From the NCBI RefSeq assembly GCF_007741535.1, contig NZ_CP036525.1:2728001-2792000 (forward strand): DNA of 64,000 nt. The letters are read 5' to 3'. The position numbers and the translations under genes are program-made. The notes below the pieces were generated by a model. That model was not told where the DNA came from. It saw only the letters and a program-made list of their open reading frames with translations, and made no database searches. This document shows positions 1 to 22,304 of this stretch, one piece after another; position 1 is the stretch's first letter; the number at the start of each line of letters is the position of its first letter. Origin of the DNA: Rubripirellula lacrimiformis (GTDB taxonomy: Bacteria > Planctomycetota > Planctomycetia > Pirellulales > Pirellulaceae).

Positions 1-2288
1 GCATTTTGAATTTCGACTGCACCGCCGTAGGTGCCCGCTTCCTGGTACTGCCACCATCGGTAGGTCAGCAGGTCATTGTCCGGGTCGACGGTCTCTTCGG
101 CGTTCATCGGGATCGTCGTCCCAGGCGGCGCCTGGAAGTCCAACGGATTGGTCAACGTAACGACCGGCGGATGGTTGGCACCATCGAACGGTTCGACACA
201 CCAGTCGGCCCGTGCTGCGAAGTCGTTTTGCATCGCTGCGGTCCAACGCCAAATCGGCTTCAAGTATTGCGTCAGCTCGCGGTCATCGGGGATTGCTTGA
301 CGCAGCCGAACACGCCCCCATGCCGAATCGCCATACCATCGGCCTGCGGGATACTCGTACGTTGGATCGGCCACTGGATCCAACCATGTGTTGTCTCGAA
401 CCCGGGTATAGCGACCACCCCAGCCACCCCAGTCGGGAGATTCAAGACTGCGCAACCCTGTGGGGATCGTGTGCAAGAATGCTGGCGAATCGCCTTCGGA
501 TCGGAAGTCGCCATCGACAAAATTGCCTTCGTCCGAATCGCGATTCGCCGTCGTGTGCGATTGGTACAGCGAACACAGTGGGCCGTGATCGGCCAGCACG
601 TTTTGCTTCATCCACTGGCCCGCAAAGTATGTCTGCTGTTCGGCCGGAAGATACTTTTTCCAGTGATAGAAGATGGCGATGAATTGGTCCGAGATGATCG
701 TCGGAATGTTGTACTTGCCCCAGTGCGGACGGATGTAGGACTGGTAAGTCGAATCCTGTTCCCAGATGAAAAAGAACCGCAGTTTTTGCGCCACGTAGGC
801 CATCTTGTCGGGATGGTCGTCTTCGATCGTTTTCAGCGCTCGGGCGATCGTGTTGGTACCACCCCACGCTTGAATCCAGATCGGACGGTCATCGGATTCA
901 TCCAGCAAGACTCGGGCGATGTGCTGGGATCCCGGCGTGATTTCATCCATCTCGCCCTCGGTTTTTACGTTCCCCAGAAACGTTCTTGCTTGCAGGAAAT
1001 CGGCTGTCGGATAGCCACTGTCATGCTGAATCAGGTTGGGGTGAACCGCGGCGTAGGCTTTCAAGTACGGCTGAACCCAATCGTCACCAGCCCATTTATG
1101 CCCATGCCAGTGATACTGAGAACTGGACGTCACGATCCCTTCGATATCCCATTGGTTGGCATACAGCAAGAATCGAACCATCGAGCATTCGTCATCAATC
1201 TCGCCGTCACTGGTAACGATGACACGCGGCTTGTCGGAAGATTTGGATGGATTCGAATCGCGAAGCAATTCAATCTTCGGGATCCAGTCACCGTCGAAGT
1301 TCACAGCGGTCGTGTTACGCGCCTTGAAGATGTTTTCCTTGGTGTATTCGGCCGCTTCTTCGTCGGTCAATTGATGAGTCCAAGGAAGGCGATTGTCGCT
1401 TTGAGACCCCGGTCCGTGGTTTTTGTATTCAGCGTAATACGCGGTTTGGTGGTTGGGGCGGCCTTTCCACGGCGACCATCCTTCGGCTCGGATATGCGAT
1501 CCAAGATCGCAGTTCAAAAAGACGACTCGCGCCGCGTTTCCCCATGGTCGGCCCAGTGCCGCGCGGGTCACATCTTCGTCGGCGTGCTTTTCGATCTTGC
1601 AGTTTTGGAAGACGTACCCAAATTGATTGACGTGCTTGCCGTTTTTTAATTTTTGGCTGTGCGCCGTGATCGTCGAATTTTTGCGACAGACGATCGTGCA
1701 AGCTTCGAACATTGCGATGCCATCGCCGTAAATGAAATCCGTTGTGCCTTCGATCCGGCAATCCTTGTGGTACGACCGGTTGTTGCCACCGGTGTAGTAA
1801 GTGTCTTGGAATCCCATGATTCGGCATTGAAAAAACACCGACCGATCACCATCCATTCGCAATGCTGCCGCCTGTCCTCCATCGATGCCGGATCGACTGT
1901 CGATCGTGTTTTGAAAGGTTACGTTTTCCGCGTAGAAACCATCCGCCATCACTCGAGTGCTGGCGTAGTCGGACGTCTTTCCGCCGTAGTTGTTGAAGGT
2001 CAGGATCGTTGTTTCGGACGATTCGCCCAGCAGTGAAAGGTTGATGGCGTCCGAAGGCACACGAATCTTCTCTTTGTACGTGCCTGGCTGGATGAAGATC
2101 GTCGTGCGTATTGATTGGTTCTTTGGCACTGCGTCGATGGCGTCTTGCACCTTGCGGAAATCGCCACTGCCATCGGCGGCAACGACGAAGTCGGCAGCTT
2201 CAGCAGTGAAACCCATCAAGATGCCAAGCAATGCGAATACGGACAAACCGATCCACGCAAGTTTTCGTTTCAAGTGCGTCATGGTCAT
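1..2288 (-). CDS. Secreted pectinesterase (CE8) fused to Sde182-type DUF1593 domain, 3' end cut by window edge
   Basis: The open frame starts at ATG 2288 (alternative in-frame ATG 2282) and runs off the left edge without a stop. Residues 1 to about 32 form a signal peptide ending near AEAAD. Residues ~33-330 are a pectin methylesterase beta-helix with all canonical motifs: GGQAAALR, the catalytic Asp of GFQDTYY, the second Asp of DFIYGDG, and the LGRPW arginine. At about residue 350 a nucleoside-hydrolase-like DUF1593 domain begins (TSDGEIDDECS, then WDIEGIVTSS), followed by the start of the Ig-like C-terminal domain (Asp-rich TVDPDND). Known: CE8 removes methyl esters from homogalacturonan. 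Inferred: a secreted two-step enzyme. It is the last visible gene of the rbs/DUF1593 cluster, separated from its upstream neighbour by a hexamer microsatellite. No long frame on the other strand here is credible as a gene. Confidence 0.9.
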   Translation of the reverse strand, partial: MTMTHLKRKLAWIGLSVFALLGILMGFTAEAADFVVAADGSGDFRKVQDAIDAVPKNQSIRTTIFIQPGTYKEKIRVPSDAINLSLLGESSETTILTFNNYGGKTSDYASTRVMADGFYAENVTFQNTIDSRSGIDGGQAAALRMDGDRSVFFQCRIMGFQDTYYTGGNNRSYHKDCRIEGTTDFIYGDGIAMFEACTIVCRKNSTITAHSQKLKNGKHVNQFGYVFQNCKIEKHADEDVTRAALGRPWGNAARVVFLNCDLGSHIRAEGWSPWKGRPNHQTAYYAEYKNHGPGSQSDNRLPWTHQLTDEEAAEYTKENIFKARNTTAVNFDGDWIPKIELLRDSNPSKSSDKPRVIVTSDGEIDDECSMVRFLLYANQWDIEGIVTSSSQYHWHGHKWAGDDWVQPYLKAYAAVHPNLIQHDSGYPTADFLQARTFLGNVKTEGEMDEITPGSQHIARVLLDESDDRPIWIQAWGGTNTIARALKTIEDDHPDKMAYVAQKLRFFFIWEQDSTYQSYIRPHWGKYNIPTIISDQFIAIFYHWKKYLPAEQQTYFAGQWMKQNVLADHGPLCSLYQSHTTANRDSDEGNFVDGDFRSEGDSPAFLHTIPTGLRSLESPDWGGWGGRYTRVRDNTWLDPVADPTYEYPAGRWYGDSAWGRVRLRQAIPDDRELTQYLKPIWRWTAAMQNDFAARADWCVEPFDGANHPPVVTLTNPLDFQAPPGTTIPMNAEETVDPDNDLLTYRWWQYQEAGTYGGAVEIQN

Positions 2289-2416
2289 GCGATCCTGGCC
2301 AGTTGGCGTCAGTTTTTTGCTTCTCGGGGGCGAATTTTGGGGCCGCGTTTGAGGCGGGAGGCCGGGAGGGTTAACGAGAAAGAGCGATTCGGTTGGTTTG
2401 GTTCGTTGTGGATGGG

Positions 2417-2606
2417 AAGTTCAAGTTCAAGTTCAAGTTCAAGTTCAAGTTCAAGTTCAAGTTCAAGTTCAAGTTCAAGTTCAAGTTCGAGTTCGAGTTC
2501 GAGTTCGAGTTCGAGTTCAAGTTCAAGTTCAAGTTCGAGTTCAAGTTCGAGTTCAAGTTCGAGTTCAAGTTCGAGTTCGAGTTCAAGTTCAAGTTCGAGT
2601 TCAAGT
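2417..2606. repeat. Hexanucleotide microsatellite (GTTCAA/GTTCGA)n
   Basis: About 32 uninterrupted copies of a 6-bp unit, mixing GTTCAA and GTTCGA with no indels. Because the unit is 6 bp and stop-free, every frame is open through it and gives artefactual poly-Ser, (Lys-Phe)n, (Val-Gln)n or (Asn-Leu)n frames that are not genes. It fills the 457-bp gap between two DUF1593 genes, so a cluster transcript would include it in the 5' region of the pectinesterase fusion. Confidence 0.97.
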
Positions 2607-2622
2607 AGGGATACAGTTCAAA

Positions 2623-2745: not shown

Positions 2746-4182
2746 CTAATCAGTAACATCAACGATCACGCGGCTATACCGCGTCAACGCTGGGGTCCCT
2801 TGGTCGGTCACCGCCAAGATGATGTGCATCGTTCCCGTTTTGGGTTCCATGACCAAGCGATCGGGGACGGTGAACGAAGCCTGGGGCTGATCAAAGTTGT
2901 CGATCGCCAATGGCTGACCCGAGCGCGCCGTTGAAGTCGTGAACGTGCCGACTTCGGGGTAATAGAACCACTGGAACGAAAGTTCATCCCCGTCCGGGTC
3001 CGTGCTGCCAGCGGCGCCAAGTTTGACGACGTCGTCGCGTTTGGCGGTGATGGTCGACGGGTGATCCAGCTTGACGATGGGCGGGTGATTGGCCTGGGCG
3101 TACGGCTGTGTGGTCCAGTCGATGCGGGCGGCGAAGTCATTCTGATAGGCACTTCGCCAACGCCAAATCGTTGCATGGTTGCTGGTGTGCCAGTTACCGT
3201 CAAAGCCTTTCACTTCGTCGACAGTGTTGGTCCATAGCGGCCTCGTTTCGGGTTCCTGGAACCACTTTTGCATTCGCGGTTGGTACAGTTCATAACGACC
3301 GCCCCAACTGCCCCAATCGGGATGTTCTAGGTCGTTGAGTCCATTTTGGACCAGGCCCAGAAAGCTAGGGGTATCGCCTTCCATCAAGTATTCGGTGTGG
3401 GGATGTTGTGCGCCCAACGGGCCGTGGTTTTGGCGGATGTGCTGGTCCAGCCAATCTTTGTCAACGATGCTGAAGTCGGCTCCGGTGAAACGAGCGTGAA
3501 ATTGATCGCCGCTAATGCCGCTCCACGTGGCATAGTGATACGCACCGCCGGCGTGAATGCCGGGACTGGCGATGTAGAACAGGTTCGGAAAGGTTTTGCG
3601 GATCCACGGTCCGCTATTGTCCTGATCCGAGATCGTGTAGACACGCAGTTTGGCAACGAACTTGGCAAGCTGTTCCGGTGTTCGTGTGGATTGAACTTTC
3701 CACAGCGCCTGGGCCAAGACGTTCGGTCCGCCCCATACTGTCACCCATAGCGGCCGCGCGTCGTCGCGATCGACCGCTGCGATCAGCCATTCCGACCCCG
3801 TGGAATCCTGGCCTTCCCCCACCGCGTTCATGCCATAGTCAGGTCGCCCCTGGCGTATCACCGATAACAGTTTGTCGGCCGTCGGGTAGCCCGGTTCATG
3901 CAACAACAGGTTCGCTTGCACATCGCCATAAGCCTTGACGATTTTTCGGATGCGATCCGGTGCCGTGCGTTTCTGTTGATGGATGGACGTGGTGGCGACC
4001 AAACCTTCGATGTCAAATTGATTGGCGTACGTCAGAAAACGCACCATCGATTGAGCGTCGTCGGGTTCATTCTCGATATCCGTCAGAACAAACACGCGAT
4101 GTTTGGACTCCTCGGCATACGAGAATTGGCCCAAGCCCAGAATGATGACGACAAACAGCCAAAAGGTCGAACAAGATTTCAT
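2746..4182 (-). CDS. Secreted Sde182-type DUF1593 protein (nucleoside-hydrolase-like)
   Basis: 478 residues from ATG 4182, chosen because it opens a clear signal peptide (Lys-Ser then a hydrophobic core ending FSYAEES). A frame extension to 4236 adds only non-signal sequence. Residues ~30-330 are the nucleoside-hydrolase-like fold, with a metal-site-like Asp cluster in [13 protein letters not shown] and WDIEGLV-type strands (here [11 protein letters not shown]). Residues ~375-478 form the Ig-like C-terminal domain ([22 protein letters not shown]). Members of this family were first described as cellulose-binding proteins, and catalytic activity is not established. It lies 124 nt downstream of another DUF1593 gene and probably shares its transcript. 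Confidence 0.9.
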
Positions 4183-4306
4183 CGCACGGTAACTCACGTG
4201 ATAGCCGGTGACTGGTAAACGTTTCGCTTGAAGCAATCCGTGCTCTGGGGCAAACTCACAAAATGGATCGCATCGCTTTTCACTGACTTTGCCAGCGAAA
4301 TCAAAT

Positions 4307-5764
4307 TCACTCGGTCGGTTCGAAAATGATTCGGCGATAGCTGGATAGATGGTGATCTCCGTCGTCCGTCACTTCACAGATCACATGGAACGTCTTTCCT
4401 GCCGAACCATGGGGGACTTCGATGGAGGCAACGCTCTTGTCGCCGTTTGTGATTTTGACGTCGCCGGGCAAGGTGCCAGCGGCGGACAACACCCACCAAT
4501 GGAACGTGAGCTTGTCGTCATCGGGATCGGAGGAACCGGATGCGTCCAGGGTGACGGTCGATCCTTGCTTTGGATTCCGGGTCAGGATTTCGATGCCTTC
4601 GCTGTCGTCGATCGTGACGTTTGGATTTCGGTTTCCGGTTCCATCATTGGCCCAGTCCATGCGAGCGGCAAAGTTATTGAACGTGGCCGGATAGAAGTGT
4701 CGGTGCAGTGATGTGCACGTTGCTTTGGCGTCGCCATCGTGGTTCGTATAGCAAAACGTCGTGCCGTCTTCACCTTTGCCCCAGGTGGAATATCCACCCC
4801 AACCGCCTTGATTGGGAACGTTGGGATCGTTCAGCCCAACGGGCATCAGATGCAGAAACGCAGGCGTATCGCCTTCGACTCCGTATTTGTATTTCGGGTA
4901 CACCTTTCCCAGGTTCCCGTGGTTTTGGATGTGCTTGGCGTATTCAGGCCAGTTCTTTTTTCCAGTTCCGTTTTGGAGTTTCCAGGCGCATTCGTCCCAG
5001 ATGAAAAACAGGTCGTCGGCGAATTCCTTTCGTAACCACTGATGCGAACTGTCGGAATACGGGGTGCGTTGTTCGCGATCCTGGTCCGTGATCGTATACA
5101 CGCGAAGCTTGTTTAGAAACTTTTTGAACTCCTCTTCACTGCGGTCTTGCTGGACGCGCCAAACGGCTTGGGCAAGCGTATTGCCGCCACCCCAAACGGT
5201 GATCCAAACCGGGCGGTCGTCATCTTCGTCAGCCAATTCGATGATCAGTTTGCTGCCGGGGGAATCGTTTCCTTCGCCGACATGTTCTGCGCCGCGTTTT
5301 TTACTGCCTAACATCGTGCGGTCACGAAGATACTTTGGACTAGGCCAGTAACCGATTTCTTGCCGCGTTTCGTCTTTCTGGTGCTGGGTTTGGCTGGACC
5401 GTTTTTGGAGATTCGGCAGGTCCTTTTCGTACGCGTTGACCGCGTCATGGATCAGTCCGATGAAGTCATCGCGAGTCTTGTCCAGGCTCCAACCCGTGCT
5501 GAAGACCAGACCTTCGATTTCCAGCATGTCCGCATGAACCATCAACCGAACCAGGGATTCGCTGTCATCGGTTTCCCAGGTGGAAACATCGGTCAACACG
5601 ACCATTCGAGGTTTAGGCGGTGCCGCATCTGACGTCTTGGCTATAGCGAAAAACGCAAACAGGACGGCGAAAGTTGTAACGGCTTTCGGCATCGATCTTA
5701 CCCATCGATATCTCTCAGCGGCTTTCGCTGCGGGGTTCGGTTTCTGGTTGGTCGAAGTCTTCAT
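4307..5764 (-). CDS. Secreted Sde182-type DUF1593 protein, translationally coupled to rbsK
   Basis: 485 residues from ATG 5764. This start overlaps the rbsK stop as ATGA, which argues for it over the in-frame codon at 5776. The N-terminus has a long basic n-region, then a hydrophobic stretch ending AKTSDAAPP, consistent with export. The Asp motif is [14 protein letters not shown], so the DD pair is kept. [25 protein letters not shown] and [11 protein letters not shown] are family landmarks. The C-terminus (residues ~390-485) is the Ig-like module ([16 protein letters not shown]). The four-base overlap with a ribokinase gene is the strongest local evidence that a DUF1593 product is made in step with ribose metabolism. 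The catalytic role is inferred only. Confidence 0.9.
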
Positions 5765-6798
5765 TTGCTGATCCATGGGGTGAGTTCATCGGAAGTGGGA
5801 AATGACGTTTGTGTGCCGATTCGAGTGACGGAAATGGCGGCGACGATGCGGGCGATGCCGGCCGCGTCTCGTAATTCCAGGCCATCTGCCAACGACACGG
5901 CTAAGGCTGCGGTGAAGGCGTCTCCGGCGCCCGTGGTGTCGACCGCGGCTACGCTGATTGCGGGAAGGTGTGTAGGACCAGTGTCGTCCAGCACCAATGC
6001 GCCTCGACTGCCCATCGTCAGGACGACCTGCTGGACGCCTCGCCCTCGCAGACGCTGTGCAGCACCGATCGCATCGTCGAAACCTTCGAGTGTCTGAACC
6101 TCGCGTGACGGTATCTCGGGTGCCTGAATCTCGGGTGCCTGAATCTCGGGTGAAGGGCCGACCCGTTCGGTGTCAGCCGGTTTTGTGGTCGTCTGTGGAC
6201 AATCGGCAAGCACTGCGATCTCCGTCATGTTCGGAACACAAACATCGCAGAGTTCCAGAAGTTCGTCGGTGACGCATCCCACCGGTGCGGGCGTTAGGAC
6301 GGTCGTCACGCCCGCGGCACGCGCGATTCGCATCGCTGCTAGGGATGCTTCGATCGGGGTTTCCATCTGGCACAGAACCAAGTCGGCTTGTTCAATGAAT
6401 GACGCTGCCGCCTGGATGTCGGTGGCAGTTAAGCCGTCGTTGGCACCGGCGACCACGATGATGCAGTTCTCTGCGTGATCATCGACAAGGATCGCGGCGG
6501 TGCCGGTGGGCAGATTGGCATCCTTTTGAACGAAAGATGTGTCGATGCCATCGGCTTGGTAGCCGTGGATCGCCTGATCGCCGAAGACATCGTTTCCGAC
6601 GCGTGCGACGAAGGTGACTTGCGCGCCCAGTCGGGCTGCTGCGACAGCTTGATTGGCACCTTTGCCACCCATTCCCTGATGCAGCGAACGGCCGGCCAAT
6701 GTTTCCCCAGGCAGCGGTAGTCGCGGTGTGCGGAACGTCAGATCAACGTTGGCCGAACCAATGACACAGATACGACTGGATCTCTTGAATTCATTCAT
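5761..6798 (-). CDS. rbsK: Ribokinase (PfkB family)
   Basis: 345 residues. Phosphorylates D-ribose at O5 with ATP in the cytoplasm. The N-terminal substrate motif is present (SANVDLTF, LPGETLAG, GMGGKGANQAVAAARLG), as is the C-terminal PfkB signature with anion hole and catalytic Asp (DTTGAGDAFTAAL). The family is usually about 305 residues. The excess is an insertion at roughly residues 205-235 made of repeats (EIQAP, EIQAP, EIPSR, EVQTL) coded by a 15-bp tandem repeat at about 6113-6160. The start lies 6 nt after the rbsC stop, and the stop overlaps the next gene by four bases, so it belongs to the rbs operon. Confidence 0.93.
   Translation of the reverse strand: MNEFKRSSRICVIGSANVDLTFRTPRLPLPGETLAGRSLHQGMGGKGANQAVAAARLGAQVTFVARVGNDVFGDQAIHGYQADGIDTSFVQKDANLPTGTAAILVDDHAENCIIVVAGANDGLTATDIQAAASFIEQADLVLCQMETPIEASLAAMRIARAAGVTTVLTPAPVGCVTDELLELCDVCVPNMTEIAVLADCPQTTTKPADTERVGPSPEIQAPEIQAPEIPSREVQTLEGFDDAIGAAQRLRGRGVQQVVLTMGSRGALVLDDTGPTHLPAISVAAVDTTGAGDAFTAALAVSLADGLELRDAAGIARIVAAISVTRIGTQTSFPTSDELTPWISK
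6113..6160. repeat. rbsK: 15-bp tandem repeat inside rbsK
   Basis: About three copies of a 15-bp unit (plus-strand core ATCTCGGGTGCCTGA) in frame within rbsK. It encodes the EIQAP-type repeats and keeps the reading frame, so it probably arose by slippage into a surface loop. Confidence 0.85.
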
Positions 6799-6804
6799 GG
6801 GATG

Positions 6805-7776
6805 CTAGTCTTCCTGTTGATTCATTCGGTCAATTGCAACGGCCGCTAGAATCACAAAGCCTTTGACCACTTGTTGCCAGAACGGCGAAACGTTTAGCAG
6901 GAACAGGCCGTTATTCAGGATGCCGATGATCAAACAGCCCAGCACAGTACCGATCACACTGCCACGCCCACCCGAAAGCGAAGTGCCACCAATCACTACC
7001 GCAGCGATCGAATCGAGTTCATAGCCGAGTCCCGCGTTGGGCTGGGCGGAATCGAGTCGGGCGGTGACGATCAATCCGGCGACGGCCGATAGCATCCCGC
7101 CCAGGGTGTAGACGGCGACCTTGACCCGTTGGACCGGCAGTCCCGTCAATCGTGCTGCGCGTTCGTTACCGCCGACGGCATAGATGTATCGGCCGAACCG
7201 CGTCTTGCGTGTCAACACCACAAAGACACCGACCAACGCGGCCGTGATCCAAACCGGTACCGGAATGGAAAACAGGATCCCTGTACCAAGGAAACCGAAG
7301 GACGACCCCAGGCCCGTCACGGGGAACCCGCCAGTCCACAACATCGTCAGACCTCGAGCGATGCTGAACATGCCCAACGTCGCGACGAACGGTGGAAGCT
7401 TGAACCGGGTGATCGCCAATCCGTTGAACAAGCCACAGGCAGCACCGGCCAGTAAGCCCGCGACGATCGATCCGAATACCGTGAAGTCCAACCCCACACC
7501 CAGTGTTGGAATCGCTACACCGTTCTTCAGAAGGCCCGCGGCGATCGCACTGGAAAGTGCCAGGATGGCGCCGACGGAAAGGTCGATTCCACCGGTCAGG
7601 ATGATCAGTGTCATGCCAATGGACAAACACAGATTGACGGAGATCTGGCGAAGAATGTTCAGACCATTGTCGGCCGTCAGGAATCTGTCCGACAGCATGC
7701 TGATGGCAACGACCATTAGCACCAGCGCGATCAGCGACTGGAACTTCATCAGTTGTTCGCGGTTGATCTTCAACAT
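6805..7776 (-). CDS. rbsC: Ribose-type ABC transporter permease
   Basis: 323 residues from ATG 7776. Upstream in-frame codons would add about 66 low-complexity basic residues with no homology, so they are rejected. The polytopic inner-membrane protein has the BPD_transp_2 family core (SVNLCLSIGMTLIILTGGIDLSVGAIL, with the GGIDLSVG signature; later GNERAARLTGLPV, VIGGTSLSGGRGSV). It forms the channel of a carbohydrate uptake (CUT2) importer with RbsA and RbsB. It lies 100 nt after rbsA and 6 nt before rbsK. Sugar specificity cannot be read from the permease; ribose is inferred from rbsD and rbsK. Confidence 0.93.
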   Translation of the reverse strand: MLKINREQLMKFQSLIALVLMVVAISMLSDRFLTADNGLNILRQISVNLCLSIGMTLIILTGGIDLSVGAILALSSAIAAGLLKNGVAIPTLGVGLDFTVFGSIVAGLLAGAACGLFNGLAITRFKLPPFVATLGMFSIARGLTMLWTGGFPVTGLGSSFGFLGTGILFSIPVPVWITAALVGVFVVLTRKTRFGRYIYAVGGNERAARLTGLPVQRVKVAVYTLGGMLSAVAGLIVTARLDSAQPNAGLGYELDSIAAVVIGGTSLSGGRGSVIGTVLGCLIIGILNNGLFLLNVSPFWQQVVKGFVILAAVAIDRMNQQED

Positions 7777-7876
7777 GGCCTGGGGATTGGTAGGGTTCGT
7801 TTTTTGGGGGGGCGAATTTGTTCGACGGTTTCGACGGGGGTGGGGTGAGTGTGGCCGAAATCCGAAGTGATTTTGG

Positions 7877-9454
7877 TTATGGGATTGTGGCTGAACTGCA
7901 TGCCACGGATGGCGGCGGACTGGAACGGTGGCTTCCCGGCAATGCCGCACGCATGATCTTTTCTTCCGTCGCATCTTGGCGGCTGAATTCGCCGCTTACG
8001 CGGCCTTCACAAAGCACCAGAATGCGATCGGAAATCGCCATGACTTCGGGCAGTTCGGAAGAAACCGCCAACACCGTCAAACCTTCGCCGGTCAACTCGT
8101 TGATCAAGGAATAGATTTCGTTTTTGGCTTGGATGTCGATCCCGCGTGTGGGTTCATCCAACATCAACACCTTGGGCTCGGTCGCGAGCCATTTGCCGAG
8201 AATGACTTTCTGTTGGTTCCCGCCGCTTAGATTGCGGATCTTCTGGTGCAGTGACGGCGTCTTTACCCGGAACCGCTGCAGTGATTTTTCAACTTGACGA
8301 AGCTCTTTACGGCGGTTCAAAAATCCGAAACGCTGGGCACCATCAAGGCTAGCCAAGTTGGCGTTTTCGGCGACGGTCATCGGCAAGACCAACCCATCAC
8401 GTTTCCGATCCTCGGGGACCAACGCCAACCCGTGCGCGATCGCGTCGCCCGGCGAACGAATCGAAACGGGATGACCACCGATCAAGATGTCGCCGCTGCA
8501 AGATCGATGGTGCAATCCAAACAAACATTCCAGCAACTCCGTTCGGCCCGCACCCATCAATCCGAAGATGCCTAAGACTTCGCCTTGCTTGACGTTCAAA
8601 CAAACTCGGTTGACTAAGAAATCGCCAGGCCGTGTTGGATGTTTTAGCATCATGTTTTCGACCCGCAAAACCTCCTGGTCCGTCGCTGACGACGTCTGAA
8701 TCGATGTTTTGACATCGCGGCCAGCCATCATTCGTACGATTTCATCGCGACTAATGTCACCGATCGCGGCGGTGCCGATCGTGTGACCATCTCGCATCAC
8801 GGTGACTTCGTCGGCAATGTGATTCAGCTCTTCTAACCGGTGAGTGATATAGACGATGGCGACGCCCTGTTTTTTCAGGTCGGCGATTCGTTGGTACAGC
8901 ACTTCGGTTTCATGTTCCGTGATCGCCGATGTCGGTTCGTCCATGATCAGAATACGGACGTCGCCGGCAAGCGCCCTTGCGATCTCGACAAGCTGCTGTT
9001 GCCCAACTCGCAGACGCCCGACCGGTGTCGTCGGTGACACATCCAAATCCAGACGCTGCAACCATTCCGCGGCATTGCGATTCATGACGCGGTAATCGAT
9101 CATCCCAGTCCGCGCAAGTGGTTCCCGTCCTAGGAAGATGTTCTCTGCCACCGTCAGGTCGGGGACCAGGCTTAGTTCCTGGAAAATCATGGCGATACCG
9201 TGGTCGCGTGCATCACGCGGGGTGGTCAATCGCACAGGGTTTCCGTGAATCAGTAATTCGCCTTGATCCGGTGCCAGTACCCCCGCCATGACATTCATCA
9301 GCGTCGATTTGCCCGCCCCGTTTTCGCCCAACAGAGCTGTCAGTCGACCGCTGCGCAGCGTCAGGTCAACGCCCTCCAGCGCTTTCACACCGGGAAACGA
9401 CTTCGATATCCCGCGCGCCTCGAACACGATATCGCTGATTTCCACGAACGTCAT
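7877..9454 (-). CDS. rbsA: Ribose-type ABC transporter, duplicated ATPase
   Basis: 525 residues from ATG 9454, preceded by a GGAAGA ribosome-binding site. A frame extension to 9532 is possible but less likely. The first nucleotide-binding domain has Walker A GENGAGKST, signature VGQQQLVEIARAL and Walker B ILIMDEPTSA. The second has the degenerate P-loop typical of this subfamily (GLMGAGRTELLE), signature LSGGNQQKV and Walker B VLMLDEPTRGID. It energises pentose uptake with RbsB and RbsC. It lies between the DUF2291 gene and rbsC, with gaps of about 100 nt. Confidence 0.95.
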   Translation of the reverse strand: MTFVEISDIVFEARGISKSFPGVKALEGVDLTLRSGRLTALLGENGAGKSTLMNVMAGVLAPDQGELLIHGNPVRLTTPRDARDHGIAMIFQELSLVPDLTVAENIFLGREPLARTGMIDYRVMNRNAAEWLQRLDLDVSPTTPVGRLRVGQQQLVEIARALAGDVRILIMDEPTSAITEHETEVLYQRIADLKKQGVAIVYITHRLEELNHIADEVTVMRDGHTIGTAAIGDISRDEIVRMMAGRDVKTSIQTSSATDQEVLRVENMMLKHPTRPGDFLVNRVCLNVKQGEVLGIFGLMGAGRTELLECLFGLHHRSCSGDILIGGHPVSIRSPGDAIAHGLALVPEDRKRDGLVLPMTVAENANLASLDGAQRFGFLNRRKELRQVEKSLQRFRVKTPSLHQKIRNLSGGNQQKVILGKWLATEPKVLMLDEPTRGIDIQAKNEIYSLINELTGEGLTVLAVSSELPEVMAISDRILVLCEGRVSGEFSRQDATEEKIMRAALPGSHRSSPPPSVACSSATIP

Positions 9455-9553
9455 TCTTCCGAAATTGAGTGAGGGTGGGTCGTGCCAAATGCCATCACGA
9501 CTCTTGGCGTCTTTGCTGAACCTTTCGGTCAAGCATCCAGCTGGGCCAAACGA

Positions 9554-10210
9554 TCAGCCAGCCTCGATGATGAATGGGACGACACGCAACGGTTTCAAGT
9601 CCGTGTCTTCGTCGGTGATTTCCACGCAGCCAACAAAGCGAAGCTTGACGCCCGGTTTGGCAATCTTGCGAAGTCCGGGCAACACGTTGGTTTCAATGCG
9701 TCCATTGATCTGTGACGATACCGAGTTGAAATCTTGTGAATTGGCGAATCCATTCACGTCTAGTAAACCCGTTCCATCACGGACCGCATTGCCGAAAATG
9801 TTGCCCGTTTCCAACACCAGCGGAATCTGTGTCTGGTCTTCTTGCAGCGACAAACCGATCGAATTCTTGTCGACCGAAACAACGTTGCCCGTACCGGCGA
9901 TGAAATAGTAATAGGTGCTACCCAGTCCCACGCTGTGACCATGCGTCTTGCGAGCCGAGTGGTGATCTTGTTGGATGATCGACACCAATTCCAACGCGTC
10001 CACGGCACCGTCCGATCCAGGAATCAAACGTGTTGTCCAAAATTCATCGACAAACGCAACCGGATCGAAGGTGGCGGCGGCCGACGACTGCTGCGGTGCG
10101 TCGCCGCGCGGGAATGGAACCACGTGGAACAGCGGCATCCAAGACAGCAAACCAGCGGTTCCCGCCGCGATGCCGACACCCCACGCCCAACGACGTCGCG
10201 ACCCTGTCAC
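9554..10210 (-). CDS. DUF2291 family periplasmic protein of the rbs operon
   Basis: 218 residues starting at GTG 10210, which overlaps the rbsB stop (GTGA). An uncleaved anchor or signal segment occupies residues ~9-33 ([18 protein letters not shown]). The rest is a soluble domain with [28 protein letters not shown] and a C-terminal beta-rich segment, matching the DUF2291 family of predicted periplasmic proteins. Members recur beside ribose-type ABC transporters, but no function is established. Coupling to rbsB suggests an accessory role in substrate capture or processing; this is inference. Confidence 0.82.
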
Positions 10211-12953: not shown

Positions 12954-13079
12954 GCTTCGTGCCTCTGTCAGGAAAGGGGGCAAGCAAATCGCTCGCTGGG
13001 TGTTCAGTCAGTTTTTGAATCTTAGCCTAAGGATTTGCGAAGTTCTTCCTGTTTGGGGCCGTTAACTAACGGTATCCTA
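12954..13079. promoter_or_regulatory. Divergent promoter region between rbs cluster and AraC gene
   Basis: A 126-bp gap between two divergent starts must hold the promoters for both. A perfect inverted repeat, CCGTTA-AC-TAACGG, lies at 13059-13072, eight bases before the AraC start codon. That suits an autoregulatory operator. No confident -35/-10 pair is assigned. Confidence 0.55.
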
Positions 13080-13916
13080 ATGCTTATGAGCCAGATCCAA
13101 ACTTCGCCACCGGAATTCTCTGCTTACGGTTTTACCTGCGAACAGTGGGAACCGGCCCGCATGCAACGCCCGGACCGCCACAACGAAATTGAACTGAACC
13201 TGTTGATGGCGGGCTCGCTGACCTATTTGCTGGGCGGCCGTCGAACGACGATCGAAGCGGGAAAGCTGGCGATTTTCTGGGGCGCGATTCCTCATCAGAT
13301 CGTGGAGTTCGACGGAAACGCACCGTACTTTGTCGTGACGGTGCCGCTGATCGAATTCCTGAGGATGGGGCTGGACCAAAGCGTGGTGAACCCCATTCTG
13401 CTGGGGACAGTGTTGACCGATTCCAAAGGCAACGATCTGGACGATTCCAGGTTCCGGCAATGGGAACGGGAACTACGTGGTCAGGATCTGGCGTGCAAAC
13501 GGGCGACTCGTTTAGAGGTCCAAGCACGATTGCTTCGTTTCGCCAGCGGCACCTCCAACGCGCCCGATCACCATTCGATCCAACTGCTATCGAACGCCGA
13601 CCAGTTGGCTTGTTACATCGCGCGGAACTACCAAGAACCGTTGACGTCGAAGTCGATCGCCGAATCGATCGGTGTTCACCCGAACTATGCAATGAATCTG
13701 TTTCGCCAAACGTTCGGCACGACGATGACGACCTTCATCACCCAGCACCGAATCTCGCACGCCCAACGCCTACTGGTCACGACCAGCGAAGCGATTCTTG
13801 ACATCGCGTTGGAATCAGGTTTCCAGAGTCTCAGCCGTTTCAACGAAGCCTTCAAAGCAACCTGTGGCTGCTCGCCGCGCGACTATCGGAAGTCGCACAA
13901 AGCCAAGCCGGCCTGA
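13080..13916 (+). CDS. AraC family transcriptional regulator
   Basis: 278 residues from ATG 13080; a start at 13086 is also possible. The N-terminal half is a cupin-like sensor (RHNEIELNLLMAGSLTYLLGG, IFWGAIPHQIVEF). The C-terminal half is a double helix-turn-helix: LTSKSIAESIGVHPNYAMNLF, then ILDIALESGFQSLSRFNEAF, ending CGCSPRDYR. The family senses small sugars. Divergent placement against the dehydrogenase/rbs/DUF1593 cluster suggests it controls that cluster. It converges on the DUF1593-GH127 fusion gene. Confidence 0.9.
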   Translation: MLMSQIQTSPPEFSAYGFTCEQWEPARMQRPDRHNEIELNLLMAGSLTYLLGGRRTTIEAGKLAIFWGAIPHQIVEFDGNAPYFVVTVPLIEFLRMGLDQSVVNPILLGTVLTDSKGNDLDDSRFRQWERELRGQDLACKRATRLEVQARLLRFASGTSNAPDHHSIQLLSNADQLACYIARNYQEPLTSKSIAESIGVHPNYAMNLFRQTFGTTMTTFITQHRISHAQRLLVTTSEAILDIALESGFQSLSRFNEAFKATCGCSPRDYRKSHKAKPA

Positions 13917-13956: not shown

Positions 13957-16900
13957 TCAATTCAGCGGAAGCCAGACGGTCATCTCGCCGCGCTGTCGAT
14001 TGGCCCAGGCGTAATAGGGAACGAACGTTGCCGGCACGGTGGTTACGGGTTTGGGTGAGTACTGGCGATACAGCGTGCCTTTCCAATCACCTTCGGGCCG
14101 CGACGATAGGTTGCCTTCTAGGACCGTGACGCCCTGAAGCAGGTCGGCGTCGAATCGCGGTCGCAACACTACATCGGCTGGCACGCGGATGTCGGCCATC
14201 GACGTTCCATGGGGCAGATCGCTGGACTCTAGGCAATACACCATGGGGCCGCGTTTGACGGCGACGTGATTGCGAGTCTCTTCGACCATCGGATGCGTTT
14301 CGATCAACATCACAGGCATCGGGATTCGTAGGTCAATCGACATCCCCTGACGCAGACTCTGATCAATGGTCGCATAGGAACCTGGAACGGCAGCTTTACC
14401 CGTTGGTACCCCGTCGACATGGATCGTTGCTGAATTTGCCCAACCCGGGATTCGCAGCTTTAGTCCAGCCGAATCTGAATCGCACTGCATCACTGTCAAG
14501 CGAACTTTCCCGTCCCAGGGATAATTCGATTCTTGCTTCAAACGGACACGGCTGCCATCTTCCAGCGTGGTGTCCAGCGTGTTGCTGCCGTACAGATTGA
14601 CCCAAACCGTGTTCGTTGACTGACCATAGGCATAGCCGTTGGTTGCCGCGATGGTCCGAGCCACATTGGGTGGGCAGCAAAATGCCGTCATGAATGGGAC
14701 GCGTGAACGCGACCAACGAAGATCGACGGGGCCGCCATCGTAGTGCCGCAGCGGGTTGGTGTAGAAGAACTCGGTGCCGTCCAGGCTGACGCCCGAAAGA
14801 ACGGAGTTGTAAAGCGTTTGTTCCAGCACATCGATGTATTTCGATTCGCCACTGGCAAGGAACATCCGCCAGTTCCACAGACAGTTTCCGATGTTTGCAC
14901 AGGTTTCGTTGTGAGCGGTGATGTTGGGCAGTTGGTAATTGCGTCCAAACGCTTGGTGGATTCGCGTGATGGATTTTTGGTTGCGAGATCCATCGGGGGA
15001 TGCACCATCAAAAAGAGCACCGCACCCGCCGGTCAGGTACATCTTCTTTTCAACCACGTTCTGCCAGATCGGTGTCAGAGCTGACCACAAGTTCGCATCA
15101 CCGGTTTCAGCGTACAAATCGGCAATCCCGGCGTACAAGTAAGTCGCCCGAACCGCATGCCCCACCGCTTCGTTCTGATCGGTAAACGGAATGCGATCTT
15201 GATTGTCGTCGCCACCATCGACCACCAGATCTCGCATCTGGATCAGCCGCTTTGCGAGTTCCAGATACCGCGGTTCTTTGGTCGTTCGATACAGATCGAT
15301 GATGCCCATGTAGTGCGATGGGCAAATGGCGTGTCGAGCGTTCTCTGGCGTCGGATTTCGAAACGCTTCGTCCAGGAAGTCCGCAGCCTTTCGAGCGATC
15401 GCCAGCAGATCATCCTTGCCGGTGACCTCGTGATGCAGACAGGCCGTCGTCATCAGATGCCCCATGTTGTACATCTCGAAATTGAAACGATCGCCGAACG
15501 GGATGGCGTTGAAGTCTCCGTTGCGAGCCGCCACTAGGACAGGGGTATGGAGATAGCCGTCGGCGCGCTGTGCCTTGCCGATGACCGCAATGATTTCATC
15601 CAATTGCTTGTCCCGGGCTGGATCGGGGTCGACAGCCTGAATCGCACATGCCGCTTCGATCCATTTATAGAAGTCGCCATCATTGAACTGTGCACCGTGG
15701 TACTGACCTTCGGCGAGCCCGGCGGCGATACGAAAGTGTTCTAGGTACGGCTTGTATTTGGTGCCCTTCATGATTTCCCACATGGCGGGAACCAGCTTGT
15801 CGCGGCAGGTCGAATATCGTTGTTGCCAGAATCCGTCCGTCCAATGCACACCGGACAAAGGAACGCGCGCGACCACCGAATTCGGCCGGGGTTTGTTGGT
15901 CTGTACGGTCGCATCTGGTACCACGGCGGCCATGCAGCGATCCATCCGATCGGCAAAGTCGCGAAGGAAATCTTGACGCCATCGATTGACGGTTTTGGCT
16001 CCTGGATGAACGCTCTCGGCCATCGCCGGATCGGGATCGTCAATCCACCAATGGGGGTGCACTTTCGATACAGATCGGGTGCGGGATGGCGGCGGTGCGA
16101 TCGCGGTGACTTTCCCTGACTTGCCGTCAAGTTCCTTGCAATCGCTTTCAACCACATAGGACCAAACCTTGGCGTCGCGTGGTGCGAATCGGAACCGCAA
16201 TGTATCGCCTTCGATCGCAGCGGCGGCGGTGGGTCTGCCCCGATTGAAGACCATTTGGGCAGTGTGGTTGGACGTGAATCCATCCGGACGAGGCAGTCGG
16301 AATTCTGTCACGCCAAAAACTTCGACGGTATCGGACGCGGTGGTCAGTCGATCGAAAATCGTTTTTCGTCCATCCCAAATCGGAACGTACTTTCCGCCCC
16401 AACCGGGTTTCGTTGGATCGTCGGAAACGCCGTTTAGCAAACGCGCAACCGAAGGCGTGTCGCCCATTTTGATGTCGGCTTTGGCGTCGACGAAGACTTT
16501 GCCAAGGTGGCCGTGCCCTGCGATGTGCTTGGCCACAAAGCCCTTGTTTCTCCATTCGCCTTGCTGCTTGCCACCGACGAACCATCCGCGATAGGTCGCG
16601 TTGGCTTCGATGATCCAAAGTTTGGGATGGTTTTGTTCGACGTAGTTGTACGCGTCGACACACCATTTTTTGTTCGGTCCACCGATAAAGTAGACTCGCA
16701 ACTTTGGCAAGATGTCAGGCGCATCGTGCAGTGCTTGCGCCAGATCCTCGATGCCGCCCCAAACCAGCACGTGCAGCGGTCGCGGATCATCCGCTCGGGC
16801 TCGCTGGACGATCCACTGCGAACCTTCGGTTGGTTGTCCCACCCCTGACGCGTCGGGCGTGTCGATCGCGCCTTGTTTGCATATCCCACGCAGCGTATCC

Positions 16901-17238
16901 GGTGTGGGGTAGGTGCCGTCGTGTGAGTGAAGCTGCGGAAAGTCTTTGGCATATGCGTCAATGACGTTCAGGATATCCCGCTTGCGTCCGGGCCCGTACG
17001 GTGACGAAACTAAGCCTTCGATGTCGATGCAGTCGGCATAGACCAGCAGATGCACCATCGACTGGACATCGTCTGGATCCGTGCCACCGATATCGGAAGA
17101 CACCAGCACTCGGTGCCGCACTCCGGTCAGTGCACCGTCGTCGGCCCTGGCTGTCAGTGCGATCGAAATCAGGAGGCAGGTTAACGCGGCGGAGGAGACA
17201 ATACGACGTGCCAGCGGTCCAGGGATGATTCGTTTCAT
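13957..17238 (-). CDS. Secreted DUF1593-GH127 fusion (beta-L-arabinofuranosidase)
   Basis: 1093 residues from ATG 17238, which opens a signal peptide ending LTARADD. Residues ~38-330 are the nucleoside-hydrolase-like DUF1593 domain (SSDIGGTDPDDVQS, IDIEGLVSSPYG, MGDTPSVARLL). A linker region carries WWIDDPDP and the HPGAKTVNRWR motif. From about residue 460 a full GH127 (DUF1680) domain follows (VHWTDGFW...). The GH127 active site looks intact: HNETCANIG supplies the Glu and Cys zinc ligands, and FCCPPNVART supplies the paired cysteines, one of which is the known nucleophile. Known GH127 enzymes remove beta-L-arabinofuranose from glycans or glycoproteins. The tandem architecture suggests both domains act on one furanose-containing polymer. 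That is inference. Confidence 0.92.
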   Translation of the reverse strand: MKRIIPGPLARRIVSSAALTCLLISIALTARADDGALTGVRHRVLVSSDIGGTDPDDVQSMVHLLVYADCIDIEGLVSSPYGPGRKRDILNVIDAYAKDFPQLHSHDGTYPTPDTLRGICKQGAIDTPDASGVGQPTEGSQWIVQRARADDPRPLHVLVWGGIEDLAQALHDAPDILPKLRVYFIGGPNKKWCVDAYNYVEQNHPKLWIIEANATYRGWFVGGKQQGEWRNKGFVAKHIAGHGHLGKVFVDAKADIKMGDTPSVARLLNGVSDDPTKPGWGGKYVPIWDGRKTIFDRLTTASDTVEVFGVTEFRLPRPDGFTSNHTAQMVFNRGRPTAAAAIEGDTLRFRFAPRDAKVWSYVVESDCKELDGKSGKVTAIAPPPSRTRSVSKVHPHWWIDDPDPAMAESVHPGAKTVNRWRQDFLRDFADRMDRCMAAVVPDATVQTNKPRPNSVVARVPLSGVHWTDGFWQQRYSTCRDKLVPAMWEIMKGTKYKPYLEHFRIAAGLAEGQYHGAQFNDGDFYKWIEAACAIQAVDPDPARDKQLDEIIAVIGKAQRADGYLHTPVLVAARNGDFNAIPFGDRFNFEMYNMGHLMTTACLHHEVTGKDDLLAIARKAADFLDEAFRNPTPENARHAICPSHYMGIIDLYRTTKEPRYLELAKRLIQMRDLVVDGGDDNQDRIPFTDQNEAVGHAVRATYLYAGIADLYAETGDANLWSALTPIWQNVVEKKMYLTGGCGALFDGASPDGSRNQKSITRIHQAFGRNYQLPNITAHNETCANIGNCLWNWRMFLASGESKYIDVLEQTLYNSVLSGVSLDGTEFFYTNPLRHYDGGPVDLRWSRSRVPFMTAFCCPPNVARTIAATNGYAYGQSTNTVWVNLYGSNTLDTTLEDGSRVRLKQESNYPWDGKVRLTVMQCDSDSAGLKLRIPGWANSATIHVDGVPTGKAAVPGSYATIDQSLRQGMSIDLRIPMPVMLIETHPMVEETRNHVAVKRGPMVYCLESSDLPHGTSMADIRVPADVVLRPRFDADLLQGVTVLEGNLSSRPEGDWKGTLYRQYSPKPVTTVPATFVPYYAWANRQRGEMTVWLPLN

Positions 17239-18142
17239 GGTCTTGGAGTCGTTCTTGGAAAAGAGGCGGTGGACGCCAGCACTGGAATGCAAGAAACCAT
17301 AGTATCGATTCCCGCTGCCCCACACGTCTTCCTGGATTGGGACGCGAAGTAGCCGTATTCACAGATGCATCGATCGTGCCCGAAGCTCCATGGGGGCCCG
17401 ACCGCGAAGGAAGCGGTGTCCGAGCATTCGGGGCTGACGGAATGCGGGCTGCTGATTTCGTTAACCGTTTAGTCGCTAGCCTCGGTTTCGTTGTTCAGGA
17501 ACTTCGTCATCCCGGAACTGGGGCTCGCGCCCAAACCGCTAACATTCGAATTTCTGAACTGAATGTCCCCCCTCACCCCCGACCCCTCTCCCCCACGTTG
17601 GACACGAGAAGAATTCGTGTCCAACGCGGGGGAGAGGGGAGGCAGTACTCGTGTACTTTCCCCCTCACCCCCGGCGCCTCTGCCCCATGTCGGACACGAG
17701 AAGAATTCGTGTCCAACGCGGGGGAGAGGGGAGGCAGTACTCGTGTACTTTCCCCCTCACCCCCGACCCCTCTCCCCCACGTTGGACACGAGAAGAATTC
17801 GTGTCCAACGCGGGGGAGAGGGGAGGCAGTGCTCGTACTGGTGCACTCTCCGCCCCCACCTCAACCTGTCGCGTCAGCGACAAGCCGGCAGTCCGCCGTT
17901 GCTTCGCGGACTGGCCAGATCGCCCAGCGGTCTCGCTTCCTTGCATCGATTGATTTCTGGTGCATTTGCCTCTGTTACCGCCAGTCTTTAAGAAACTGGC
18001 GATTGCGCCGATAGCGGCCGACCTCCGGTCTGTTCTAGAATCGAGAGCAGCTGATCCGCCGCCTCTTTCCACGTCCAGAGACGTGACCGATTTGGCAACC
18101 AATCCAAGCTCCGACGACCCGACATCCCGAAAGACTGTCCTG
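17239..18142. other. Gene-free intergenic region with tandem palindromic repeat
   Basis: About 900 bp between divergent genes. The centre is the 92-bp repeat listed separately. The flanks (17239-17567 and 17844-18142) have only short frames that lack start context and homology. Promoters for the GH127 fusion and the DUF1254 gene must lie here, but none can be fixed. Confidence 0.7.
17568..17843. repeat. Three tandem copies of a 92-bp palindromic repeat
   Basis: Copies begin at 17568, 17660 and 17752. Each holds a nearly perfect inverted repeat: CCCCTCTCCCCCACGTTGGA pairs with the mirrored CGGGGGAGAGGGG arm around a GAAGAATTC centre. Copy 2 has changes in the left arm (GGCGCCTCTGCCCC), and copy 3 diverges after its right arm. 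The unit would fold into a long GC-rich hairpin. The proline/arginine-rich open frames it creates are artefacts. Confidence 0.93.
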
Positions 18143-19540: not shown

Positions 19541-19614
19541 CCGAGTCAACCAATCTGCGGACAGCCATTCCAATCCACACGAATCCTGACAGTAGCACAC
19601 TGGACACAAGCAAT

Positions 19615-21111: not shown

Positions 21112-21311
21112 TCGGGCCGCACGTTGGATTGCTGCCGATCTGTTCGAACACGCAGGCAAGTCGCTGCTGGACGATTCCAGTCAAGCTGCCATTCGGAATG
21201 CGGCGTCGCAAACTCGCCGCAAAGTACAGTGATGCTTCAGTGCTTGCCGCCACCGTCCGATCGGGAAGTTCCAACCGTCTAGACGATCTGTCACGATCGA
21301 ACTGATCTCGG

Positions 21312-22304
21312 TTACTGTGAATTCACTCGATCCATTCGCTGTTTCCAGTCTTCCAAGTATTCCCGCCGCCACTGGTTGACCGTTTTGGCACCGGCCCGAT
21401 TGCCGGTGGATAGTTTGCGATCGGGGTTGTCGGTCCAGTAGTGCGTGCCGTGGTCGGTCGCTATGAACGCGCCACCCCAATGCGGCGCTGTGGGGGCGTC
21501 TGGGTTGCCGCGCAGTAAGTACAGGAATGACGGGGTATCGCCCATCTTGATGTCGCGTTTTTTCTGGACGAACAGATCCCCTAGTGATCCGTGTCCCTGG
21601 ATGTTCTGTTCGACGAAACTTTCGTTTCCCCACTCGCCTTGCTGCTGACCGCCCATGTACATCCCGCGAAACGTGGTGTCGTTCTCGATCCACCACAAAT
21701 CCGAATGCTGATGGAATAGGTAGTCCCGTGCAGCGGTGTCCAGTTTGGTGTTCCATGATCCAATCGAATAGACACGAACTTTGCTTTTGATCGACGGGTC
21801 ATCGTGGACTGCCTGTGCCACATCCGTGATGCTTCCCCAAACCAAAATCCACAACGGACGTTCGTCGTCGGCGTGAGCCTGCTGGACAATCCATCGTGAC
21901 CCGTCGGTTGGTTCGCCCCAACCTTCTTGCGGCGCCTTGTCGACGGCCCCTTGCTTTGTGATGCCACGCAGTGCATCCGGACTGGGGTAATCTTTCGAAT
22001 GACGTTTCAGCTGTGAGTGGTCGCTGGCGTAGGCATCAATCACTTCCAAAATGTGCTTTGATCGCCCAGCGTGTGGCGGTGATGAAATCAAGCCTTCCAA
22101 GTCGATCACGTCGGCGTAAAGAAACAGGTGGACCAGCGATTGAAAGTCGTCCGGATCGGATCCGCCCACATCCGATGAAACGATCACACGCGGTCTGTCG
22201 CCGTCTAACGCGCCGCCCGGAGGTGACGCCGAAACCACTCCTCGGTCACCCATCGCGATCACGTATAGGAAAGCAAGCAGGATGGTTTGAGTGATTGGTT
22301 TCAT
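21312..22304 (-). CDS. Secreted stand-alone DUF1593 domain protein
   Basis: 330 residues from ATG 22304 (signal peptide MKPITQTILLAFLYVIAM, processing near VSASPP). It has the SSDVGGSDPDDFQS Asp cluster, IDLEGLISSPPHAG, WILVWGSITDVAQ and KMGDTPSFLYLL. It ends after the AGAKTVNQWRREYLEDW motif and lacks the Ig-like C-terminal domain. It is closest in sequence to the N-terminal half of the GH127 fusion at 13957-17238 and probably represents the same module without its hydrolase partner. It converges with the DUF1254 pair. Confidence 0.9.
   Translation of the reverse strand: MKPITQTILLAFLYVIAMGDRGVVSASPPGGALDGDRPRVIVSSDVGGSDPDDFQSLVHLFLYADVIDLEGLISSPPHAGRSKHILEVIDAYASDHSQLKRHSKDYPSPDALRGITKQGAVDKAPQEGWGEPTDGSRWIVQQAHADDERPLWILVWGSITDVAQAVHDDPSIKSKVRVYSIGSWNTKLDTAARDYLFHQHSDLWWIENDTTFRGMYMGGQQQGEWGNESFVEQNIQGHGSLGDLFVQKKRDIKMGDTPSFLYLLRGNPDAPTAPHWGGAFIATDHGTHYWTDNPDRKLSTGNRAGAKTVNQWRREYLEDWKQRMDRVNSQ

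Follow-up and report, generated by a model that had tools for sequence, protein, structure and literature searches.

The closest described relative of the proteins considered here is Sde_0182 of Saccharophagus degradans, the one reported member of the DUF1593 family (PF07632, Sde182_NH-like), whose structure (2YHG) was released in 2011. According to the accessible part of PMC8910321, which cites Hehemann et al. 2011, its nucleoside-hydrolase-like domain retains Ca2+, has no activity towards purine or pyrimidine nucleosides and is regarded as a module that interacts with furanoses. A second paper containing the terms Sde182, Sde0182 or PF07632 (PMC2386152) is silent on function in its accessible part, and literature searches that left out most subscription papers, and whose blanks are therefore weak, returned no paper naming ‘DUF1593’ and none combining ‘apiose’ with ‘nucleoside hydrolase’. 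Here we analyze a 64,000-nucleotide stretch of the Rubripirellula lacrimiformis genome (NZ_CP036525.1, positions 2,728,001 to 2,792,000; hereafter the window), in which five DUF1593 proteins, predicted to be exported, are encoded beside a ribose-type importer. Our reading, to which we give a probability of roughly 55%, is that DUF1593 proteins are exported predicted furanosidases coupled to pentose import, with D-apiose as the likeliest sugar across the family.

Apiose forms part of the borate cross-links of plant cell walls and is abundant in the pectins of seagrasses and duckweeds. Rhamnogalacturonan II (RG-II) contains it, and in the degradation of RG-II BT1012 of B. thetaiotaomicron serves as a beta-apiosidase (PMC7939467, accessible part). 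Apiogalacturonan is a galacturonan bearing beta-D-apiofuranose side groups, and one member of the PL1_2 lyases, which include PelZ, is active on it (PMC11229556, accessible part). In E. coli SE15, the D-apiose cluster (ECSF_RS02670-02715) includes aplK, aptA and aptB, and tested strains carrying the cluster (SE15 itself not among them) grow on D-apiose whereas E. coli K-12 does not (PMC13001218, accessible part). In the SE15 cluster, an FGGY kinase and split transketolases accompany a binding protein of RbsB type with a ribose annotation, DUF2291, an ATPase and a permease. The enzyme roles reportedly go back to Carter et al.

Five DUF1593 genes flank a ribose-type import run

All five PF07632 domains of the window lie on the minus strand within positions 1-22367 (about 22 kb) and exceed the Pfam cut-off of 26.8 bits (242.5, 392.2, 269.4, 201.7 and 186.6 bits). 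A search of the whole genome (8,542,491 bases) returned these five domains and no others; since every copy in the genome sits at one locus, their clustering is not due to chance. The gene at 1..2288 encodes a CE8 pectin methylesterase fused to DUF1593 and an Sde0182_C tail, as identified by Pfam, CE8 motifs and metal-site acids. Two genes encode stand-alone DUF1593 proteins with the same tail, one at 2746..4236 (Pfam, 392 bits; match to the solved 2YHG) and one at 4307..5776 (Pfam), the start of which overlaps rbsK by 16 nt. A DUF1593-GH127 fusion follows at 13957..17325 (Pfam) and a bare DUF1593 module at 21312..22367 (Pfam); the latter more likely starts at 22304, because an in-frame ATG there precedes what reads as a signal-like stretch. 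The tail domain (PF21027) is present in the CE8 fusion and both stand-alone proteins, and the fused enzyme domains score 249.5 bits (CE8, PF01095) and 385.7 bits (GH127, PF07944). The CE8 motifs QDT, DFI and GRPW and the GH127 motifs NETC and CCPP, whose residues we take to be catalytic, are all retained, and the fused enzymes therefore look active. None of the five proteins matched PF13204 (apiosidase-like) at E <= 0.001. Export is suggested by hydrophobic N-termini, judged by eye, in the five window proteins, and a crude test found a hydrophobic stretch near the N-terminus in 112 of 124 DUF1593 genes of 300-620 amino acids at the loci described below.

The preliminary description of this DNA, made from its letters alone, had reported five DUF1593 proteins or fusions within 22 kb, and Pfam scores and the whole-genome search bear this out, as the PF01095 and PF07944 matches do for its two fusion partners. 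The Asp-Asp strings that it quoted are present in all five domains, and the genes do lie beside rbsD, rbsBAC and rbsK, with DUF2291 in the same run. Its gene coordinates hold with two refinements: the CE8 fusion (807 amino acids) has its final 135 nt before the window's first base, and the open reading frame (ORF) of the bare module opens at 22367.

The import genes form a one-strand run (minus) in the order ADH, rbsD, rbsB, DUF2291, rbsA, rbsC, rbsK, DUF1593, DUF1593, CE8-DUF1593, separated by 48, 107, -4, 21, -98, 6, -16, 70 and 457 nt. It opens with a zinc alcohol dehydrogenase (ADH; 11736..12983, profile match), followed by rbsD for D-ribose pyranase (11280..11687; 172.5 bits, cut-off 93), an RbsB-type binding protein (10207..11172), a DUF2291 lipoprotein (9554..10210), which often accompanies transporters of this type and is found in the E. 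coli apiose cluster as well, rbsA for a CUT2 ATPase with two ATP-binding cassette (ABC) domains (7877..9532, profile matches), rbsC for a CUT2 permease (6805..7974) and rbsK for ribokinase (5761..6798; TIGR02152, 340 bits, cut-off 299.65). The 98-nt overlap of rbsC with rbsA arises because the ORF start is probably too early, with the likely start of rbsC further in. An AraC-type regulator (13035..13916, plus strand) diverges from the run, with 51 nt between the ORFs, and has a 67% identical relative at a locus of another planctomycete genus (G045, below). RbsK and RbsD exceed curated NCBIfam cut-offs; RbsB (246.1 vs 337 bits), RbsC (331.7 vs 398) and RbsA (553.4 vs 745) miss their equivalog cut-offs. 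The binding protein is 61% identical to the T. maritima ribose-binding protein (tmRBP) and 30% to its counterpart in the E. coli apiose cluster. Modelled alone it gave a poor predicted local distance difference test score (pLDDT 38), and its search was used only for PDB titles (2FN8, ribose bound). The combination of DUF2291 with a CUT2 transporter that marks the D-apiose cluster is present at window 6805-11172 as well as in the E. coli cluster.

DUF1593 domains resemble nucleoside hydrolases and keep a metal site

We modelled the domain of the 2746-4236 protein with AlphaFold from an alignment of 26 sequences, five from the window and 21 from its taxonomic family. The model (mean pLDDT 84) had 2YHG as its best PDB match in Foldseek (E 6.9e-25), and nine further matches with E <= 0.001 were all nucleoside hydrolases, led by RihA with ribose (2.9e-4), which places this one of the five domains in the nucleoside-hydrolase fold.

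The metal site was surveyed in 179 domains, drawn from the window, from loci of its family and from the 80 loci described below; the 172 near full length were counted. D7 was found wherever the position was occupied (168 of 168 domains) and D242 in 171 of 172; the counts for D13 (172/172) and D14 (171/172) hold partly by construction because the pattern used in the 80-locus scan contains D13-D14, D7 and D242 lying outside it. All four acids are kept in each of the five window domains. By motif, D7, D13, D14 and D242 correspond to nucleoside-hydrolase residues 10, 14, 15 and 242. Only in the CE8 fusion is the first motif spaced as in nucleoside hydrolases, and DUF1593 has a glycine where nucleoside hydrolases have a histidine next to residue 242. 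DUF1593 subfamilies differ at the position following the second strand and in the region 158-160, as would be expected if their substrates differ.

Membership of the classical nucleoside hydrolases was rejected: the bare module scored 19.8 bits against PF01156, under the cut-off of 34.2, and the other four window proteins gave no score. A profile comparison with RihC found no match, which shows little with a single RihC sequence. Separately, one DUF1593 copy, in a 1214-amino-acid frame (L016:1501-2349), has PDE for PDD and GGT for GDT and has apparently lost the metal site.

DUF1593 genes are linked to the importer across phyla

A contig scan with the DUF1593 alignment gave at least 572 relatives. 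From these we took the best 80 by similarity to the 2746-4236 domain, with flanks of up to 10 kb; the loci were chosen blind to their neighbours but are biased towards one subfamily. By record titles they comprise 45 Bacteroidota, 14 Verrucomicrobiota, 8 Acidobacteriota, 5 Planctomycetota, 4 Bacillota and 4 others. Full-flank loci, those exceeding 20 kb, numbered 52, and forty 20-kb pieces from arbitrary places in 16 of the same genomes served as controls. Genes were counted by tblastn because scripted ORF calls missed the DUF1593 gene in 6 of the 80 loci.

At least two genes of a window-type transporter lay within about 10 kb in 31 of 80 loci and 23 of 52 full-flank loci, compared with 1 of 40 controls (Fisher p 2e-6, a value that is too small because related genomes are not independent). 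Likewise, at least two of AptA, AptB, AplK and a linked isomerase were present in 28 of 80 loci and 23 of 52 full-flank loci and in none of the 40 controls, and 24 of the 80 loci had both sets. DUF1593 stood in a same-strand run with import or catabolic genes at 28 loci. Only one locus had RbsK and two had RbsD, all three in Planctomycetota. The transporter set was found in Bacteroidota, Verrucomicrobiota, Acidobacteriota, Planctomycetota and one gammaproteobacterium, and a common order in Bacteroidota was isomerase, split transketolase N and C, DUF1593, binding protein, DUF2291, ATPase, permease, kinase.

The linkage was also visible from the side of the binding protein. We hand-picked 28 of the 80 loci, some having the transporter and some lacking it, and searched their genomes for the binding protein (E <= 1e-40). 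It was present in 20; in 19 it lay at the given DUF1593 locus, and in the remaining one (G086) it lay elsewhere, with a DUF1593 gene directly after it there too. Loci carried up to six DUF1593 paralogues, and the direct neighbour was an import or catabolic gene for 5 of 33 genes of the GH127-fusion type, 7 of 22 of the CE8-fusion type and 18 of 87 of the 2746-4236 type.

Homologues of the D-apiose enzymes accompany DUF1593

The gene set of the SE15 D-apiose cluster is the set found around DUF1593 at other loci. We searched for AptA in 26 hand-picked, mostly cassette-bearing genomes. The 17 best matches scored 249-277 bits with 46-52% identity to E. coli AptA, and by coordinates 16 of them lay within about 10 kb of DUF1593; around the 17th (Evansella) the 20 kb read held no DUF1593, and its contig differs from that of the Evansella DUF1593 locus. 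Lower matches, of at most 231 bits, showed 35-44% identity when split and 28-37% when full-length; among the split ones, that of L137 is also DUF1593-linked and that of L138 is in two pieces (53%). A 32-row tree placed E. coli AptA, on a long branch, among the cassette proteins (support 87/87; wider group 97/93), and five rows of no known link formed a separate clade (100/100). The tree's ‘linked’ labels are incomplete: L123, L130 and L137 are tagged ‘other’ yet have DUF1593 within about 10 kb, and the surroundings of most further ‘other’ rows lay outside the survey.

E. coli AplK shares 39% identity with GlpK and 26% with XylB, and the cassette kinases are likewise GlpK-like. The association is clearest at two acidobacterial loci. 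At L077, homologues of AptA (52%), AptB (39%) and AplK (48%) lie one gene away from two DUF1593 genes on the opposite strand. At L042, a regulator, DUF2291, ATPase (44%), permease (57%), binding protein (42%), isomerase and two DUF1593 genes form a single abutting or overlapping run (identities to the E. coli apiose cluster proteins).

Pectin genes recur near DUF1593

Within the 80 loci, PL10-like genes occurred at 14, PelZ-like at 17, PF13204 apiosidase-like at 7, GH28 at 6 and GH127 at 5. For the full-flank loci, PL10-like, PelZ-like, PF13204 and GH28 genes were found in 7, 10, 4 and 5 of 52 against 0, 1, 0 and 1 of 40 controls, a weaker contrast than that of the transporter and apiose-type genes. 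The PelZ-like representative scored below its NCBIfam cut-off (172.7 vs 840). GH43 adjoins some DUF1593 loci, and L041 has a BT_1020-like propeller together with GH43.

Neighbours at six plasmid loci were GH65; a pair of GH127 genes together with esterases; a pectate lyase and uronate catabolism genes; GH115; GH1 and an alpha-L-rhamnosidase; or nothing informative. Plant glycans are the commoner theme at these loci. On plasmid pSRC2 of Selenomonas ruminantium (L211:1464-12323), a DUF1593 gene with a signal-like N-terminus lies between a beta-glucoside phosphotransferase system and GH1, along with an alpha-L-rhamnosidase; the locus looks suited to degrading plant glycosides, which may be apiosyl or rhamnosyl glucosides.

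Planctomycetes combine the importer with different catabolic genes

Among 60 genomes of the window's own taxonomic family, 25 had DUF1593, which was absent from the one other genome of the window's genus, and 19 of these 25 had RbsD-family genes. The window-type binding protein was found in four of the 60, all within the 25 with DUF1593 (p 0.026 including the window genome; 3 of 24 vs 0 of 35, p about 0.06 by hand, with it excluded), and in two of these four it was linked to DUF1593. In G045, from another genus of the family, genes for a PelZ-like protein, DUF6807, two DUF1593, GH127, RbsK, ADH, RbsD, RbsB, DUF2291, RbsA and RbsC lie on one strand, so that pectin is a link of the planctomycete form as well. 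G009 has an ADH-rbsD-rbsB-DUF2291-rbsA run on a contig without DUF1593. In G052 (L159), AptB and a GlpK-like kinase replace RbsD, RbsK and ADH beside the same transporter, on a 12-kb contig without DUF1593. Two catabolic sets thus swap around one importer within the window's family. A survey of the phylum gave 1 of 392 genomes, the window's own, which is too rare for a statistical test of linkage there.

In Rhodopirellula sp. SM50 (L073), rbsK is cut to its first 45 and about its last 15 codons (4990-5169), between the permease and DUF1593. In L070, rbsK was not found in the locus; the transporter and DUF1593 genes remain there as in L073. Both genomes have a second ribokinase-like gene elsewhere.

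Other features of the window include two tandem DUF1254/DUF1214 proteins on the plus strand inside the DUF1593 region (17960-21111), a weak match to an IS200-like transposase just past the bare module (22616-23302; 20.3 bits, cut-off 23) and a 2025-amino-acid ORF on the plus strand (57596-63673). A tRNA was the sole match of an Rfam scan, and a promoter scan was uninformative (one found vs 7.7 in shuffles).

Discussion

We propose that DUF1593 proteins are exported O-furanosidases built on a nucleoside-hydrolase fold with a four-acid metal site, which would take a furanose pentose off pectic polymers for entry into the cell through the co-encoded RbsB/RbsA/RbsC/DUF2291 importer. Across the family this pentose is most likely D-apiose, which is branched and takes the furanose form in RG-II and apiogalacturonan. 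In Bacteroidota, Verrucomicrobiota, Acidobacteriota and one gammaproteobacterium, apiose would then be catabolised by the isomerase, the glycerol-kinase-like kinase and the split transketolase. The planctomycete window has the same importer type with RbsD, RbsK and ADH, and its product may be ribose, or else apiose that is processed along a different route. Exported furanosidase with pentose import is the best reading because of the nucleoside-hydrolase fold, the kept acids and the cross-phylum importer link; catalysis, the linkage cut and the sugar are what we infer from these. The preliminary description had likewise proposed secreted furanosidases with an imported pentose, and that part stands. 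Neither of the outcomes that it said would count against its proposal was seen: the calcium site is not lost from all five domains, as judged from sequence rather than geometry, and the link to an Rbs-type importer recurs across phyla well above control. Ribose, which it favoured as the sugar, did not hold up as a family-wide product and was rejected, as RbsK and RbsD are rare partners; we keep it as a rival for the window. It had also called the function not established, which agrees with the accessible part of PMC8910321, where the role is still a hypothesis, although a furanose-interacting module is already proposed there.

Several observations weigh against our reading. At the pocket positions, the window binding protein equals tmRBP at 12 of 12 and E. 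coli RbsB at 11 of 12. The tmRBP pocket recurs in 23 of 24 linked-locus binding proteins longer than 250 amino acids (only L042 differs), and the E. coli apiose binding protein departs from it at several positions. In T. maritima, ribose induces the ribose operon, which holds a transketolase too, 14- to 92-fold, and xylose does so almost as strongly (PMC3750489, accessible part). In the window genome, an AptA-type search gave only a 33% match in a 685-amino-acid frame of the full-length type and no split transketolase (AptB and AplK were not searched separately), and the linked-type isomerase had no match in a search that was weak for want of a positive control. Among the 25 family genomes with DUF1593, only the window genome and G045 have RbsD at the DUF1593 locus. 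More widely, 25 of the 52 full-flank loci have neither the transporter nor the apiose-type set, and the cassette is absent from all six plasmid loci read (of 11 records found). The linked isomerase is placed by PF02952 only, with no solved relative found, and the linked kinases are nearer GlpK than AplK in all but L077, so that their orthology to AplK is not established. The importer may carry both sugars, or the sugar may vary between lineages. The identity of the window pocket to that of tmRBP, the ribose induction of the T. maritima operon and the RbsD and RbsK scores above NCBIfam cut-offs argue for an alternative in which the sugar that DUF1593 releases is D-ribose, from ribofuranosyl glycans or nucleoside-like debris, which a true ribose transporter takes up and RbsK phosphorylates. 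We consider this unlikely: RbsK and RbsD are found at one and two of the 80 loci, rbsK is reduced in L073 and was not found in L070 while importer and DUF1593 are retained (with another ribokinase-like gene elsewhere in both), and the neighbourhood is pectic, ribose not being known as a component of pectin. Homologues of AptA, AptB and AplK are also unnecessary for the use of ribose.

The inactivity of Sde_0182 on nucleosides, which tells against our reading as well, together with its retention of Ca2+ and ribofuranose binding (PMC8910321, accessible part), instead suits a non-catalytic module that binds pectin furanose and targets fused or neighbouring enzymes, as proposed for that protein. 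The CE8 and GH127 fusions do resemble an enzyme with an accessory module. The matching position lacks the catalytic histidine of nucleoside hydrolases. However, many copies stand alone and share a run with import and catabolic genes, as is usual for enzymes, the site acids are almost invariant over 172 domains, and a locus may hold up to six paralogues, all of which leaves such a module improbable in our view. GH127, named by Pfam a beta-L-arabinofuranosidase family, is fused to DUF1593 in the window and present at 5 of 80 loci, and GH43 stands beside some; DUF1593 could then release L-arabinofuranose or, for example, aceric acid, with the apiose- or ribose-type genes merely co-regulated. We rate this as very unlikely, since no arabinose isomerase or ribulokinase was found among the recurrent neighbour clusters annotated (one representative each, clusters in few loci being left out), and apiose-type enzymes recur instead.

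Beyond the reading of exported furanosidases with pentose import, we suggest tentatively, and with somewhat less than even confidence, that DUF1593 constitutes a new glycoside hydrolase family of metal-dependent apiofuranosidases on a nucleoside-hydrolase fold, spread over at least five phyla, acting with apiosidase-like enzymes and pectate lyases on RG-II and apiogalacturonan and feeding a dedicated D-apiose importer. The operon evidence points to a small set of first candidate substrates for DUF1593. If our reading is right, a widespread family annotated as ‘cellulose-binding, unknown function’ would become one of pectin furanosidases, the nucleoside-hydrolase fold would be linked to polysaccharide breakdown, the release of apiose by bacteria of many phyla would be explained, and some ‘ribose transporter’ annotations would be wrong.

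Comparison with known systems

Sde_0182 belongs to the same family (E 1.4e-87 to the 2746-4236 protein) and shares the nucleoside-hydrolase-like fold and metal-site acids; it has no assigned function, whereas the DUF1593 genes here go with pentose uptake, catabolism of the apiose type and pectin enzymes. Nucleoside hydrolases (PF01156; E. coli RihA and RihC) have the fold and an Asp cluster at matching places, but DUF1593 proteins are predicted to be exported and are pectin-linked, and only the bare module gives any PF01156 score. The job predicted for DUF1593, removing apiose from pectin, is that of the beta-apiosidase BT1012 (presumably GH140), PF13204 relatives of which occur in 7 of the 80 loci; BT1012 is nevertheless of a separate family, with no PF13204 match in the five window proteins. 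The T. maritima ribose operon (RbsR regulon) shares the 61% identical binding protein, an ABC transporter and a ribokinase with the window. It also holds two extra sugar enzymes and a transketolase, and DUF1593 is not mentioned in the accessible part of its description (PMC3750489). The E. coli SE15 D-apiose cluster shares the CUT2 transporter with DUF2291, and homologues of its AptA, AptB and AplK occur in the cassette loci; it differs in having no DUF1593 among the annotated genes of a 49-kb stretch, and the window locus has RbsK, RbsD and ADH in place of its kinase and transketolase.

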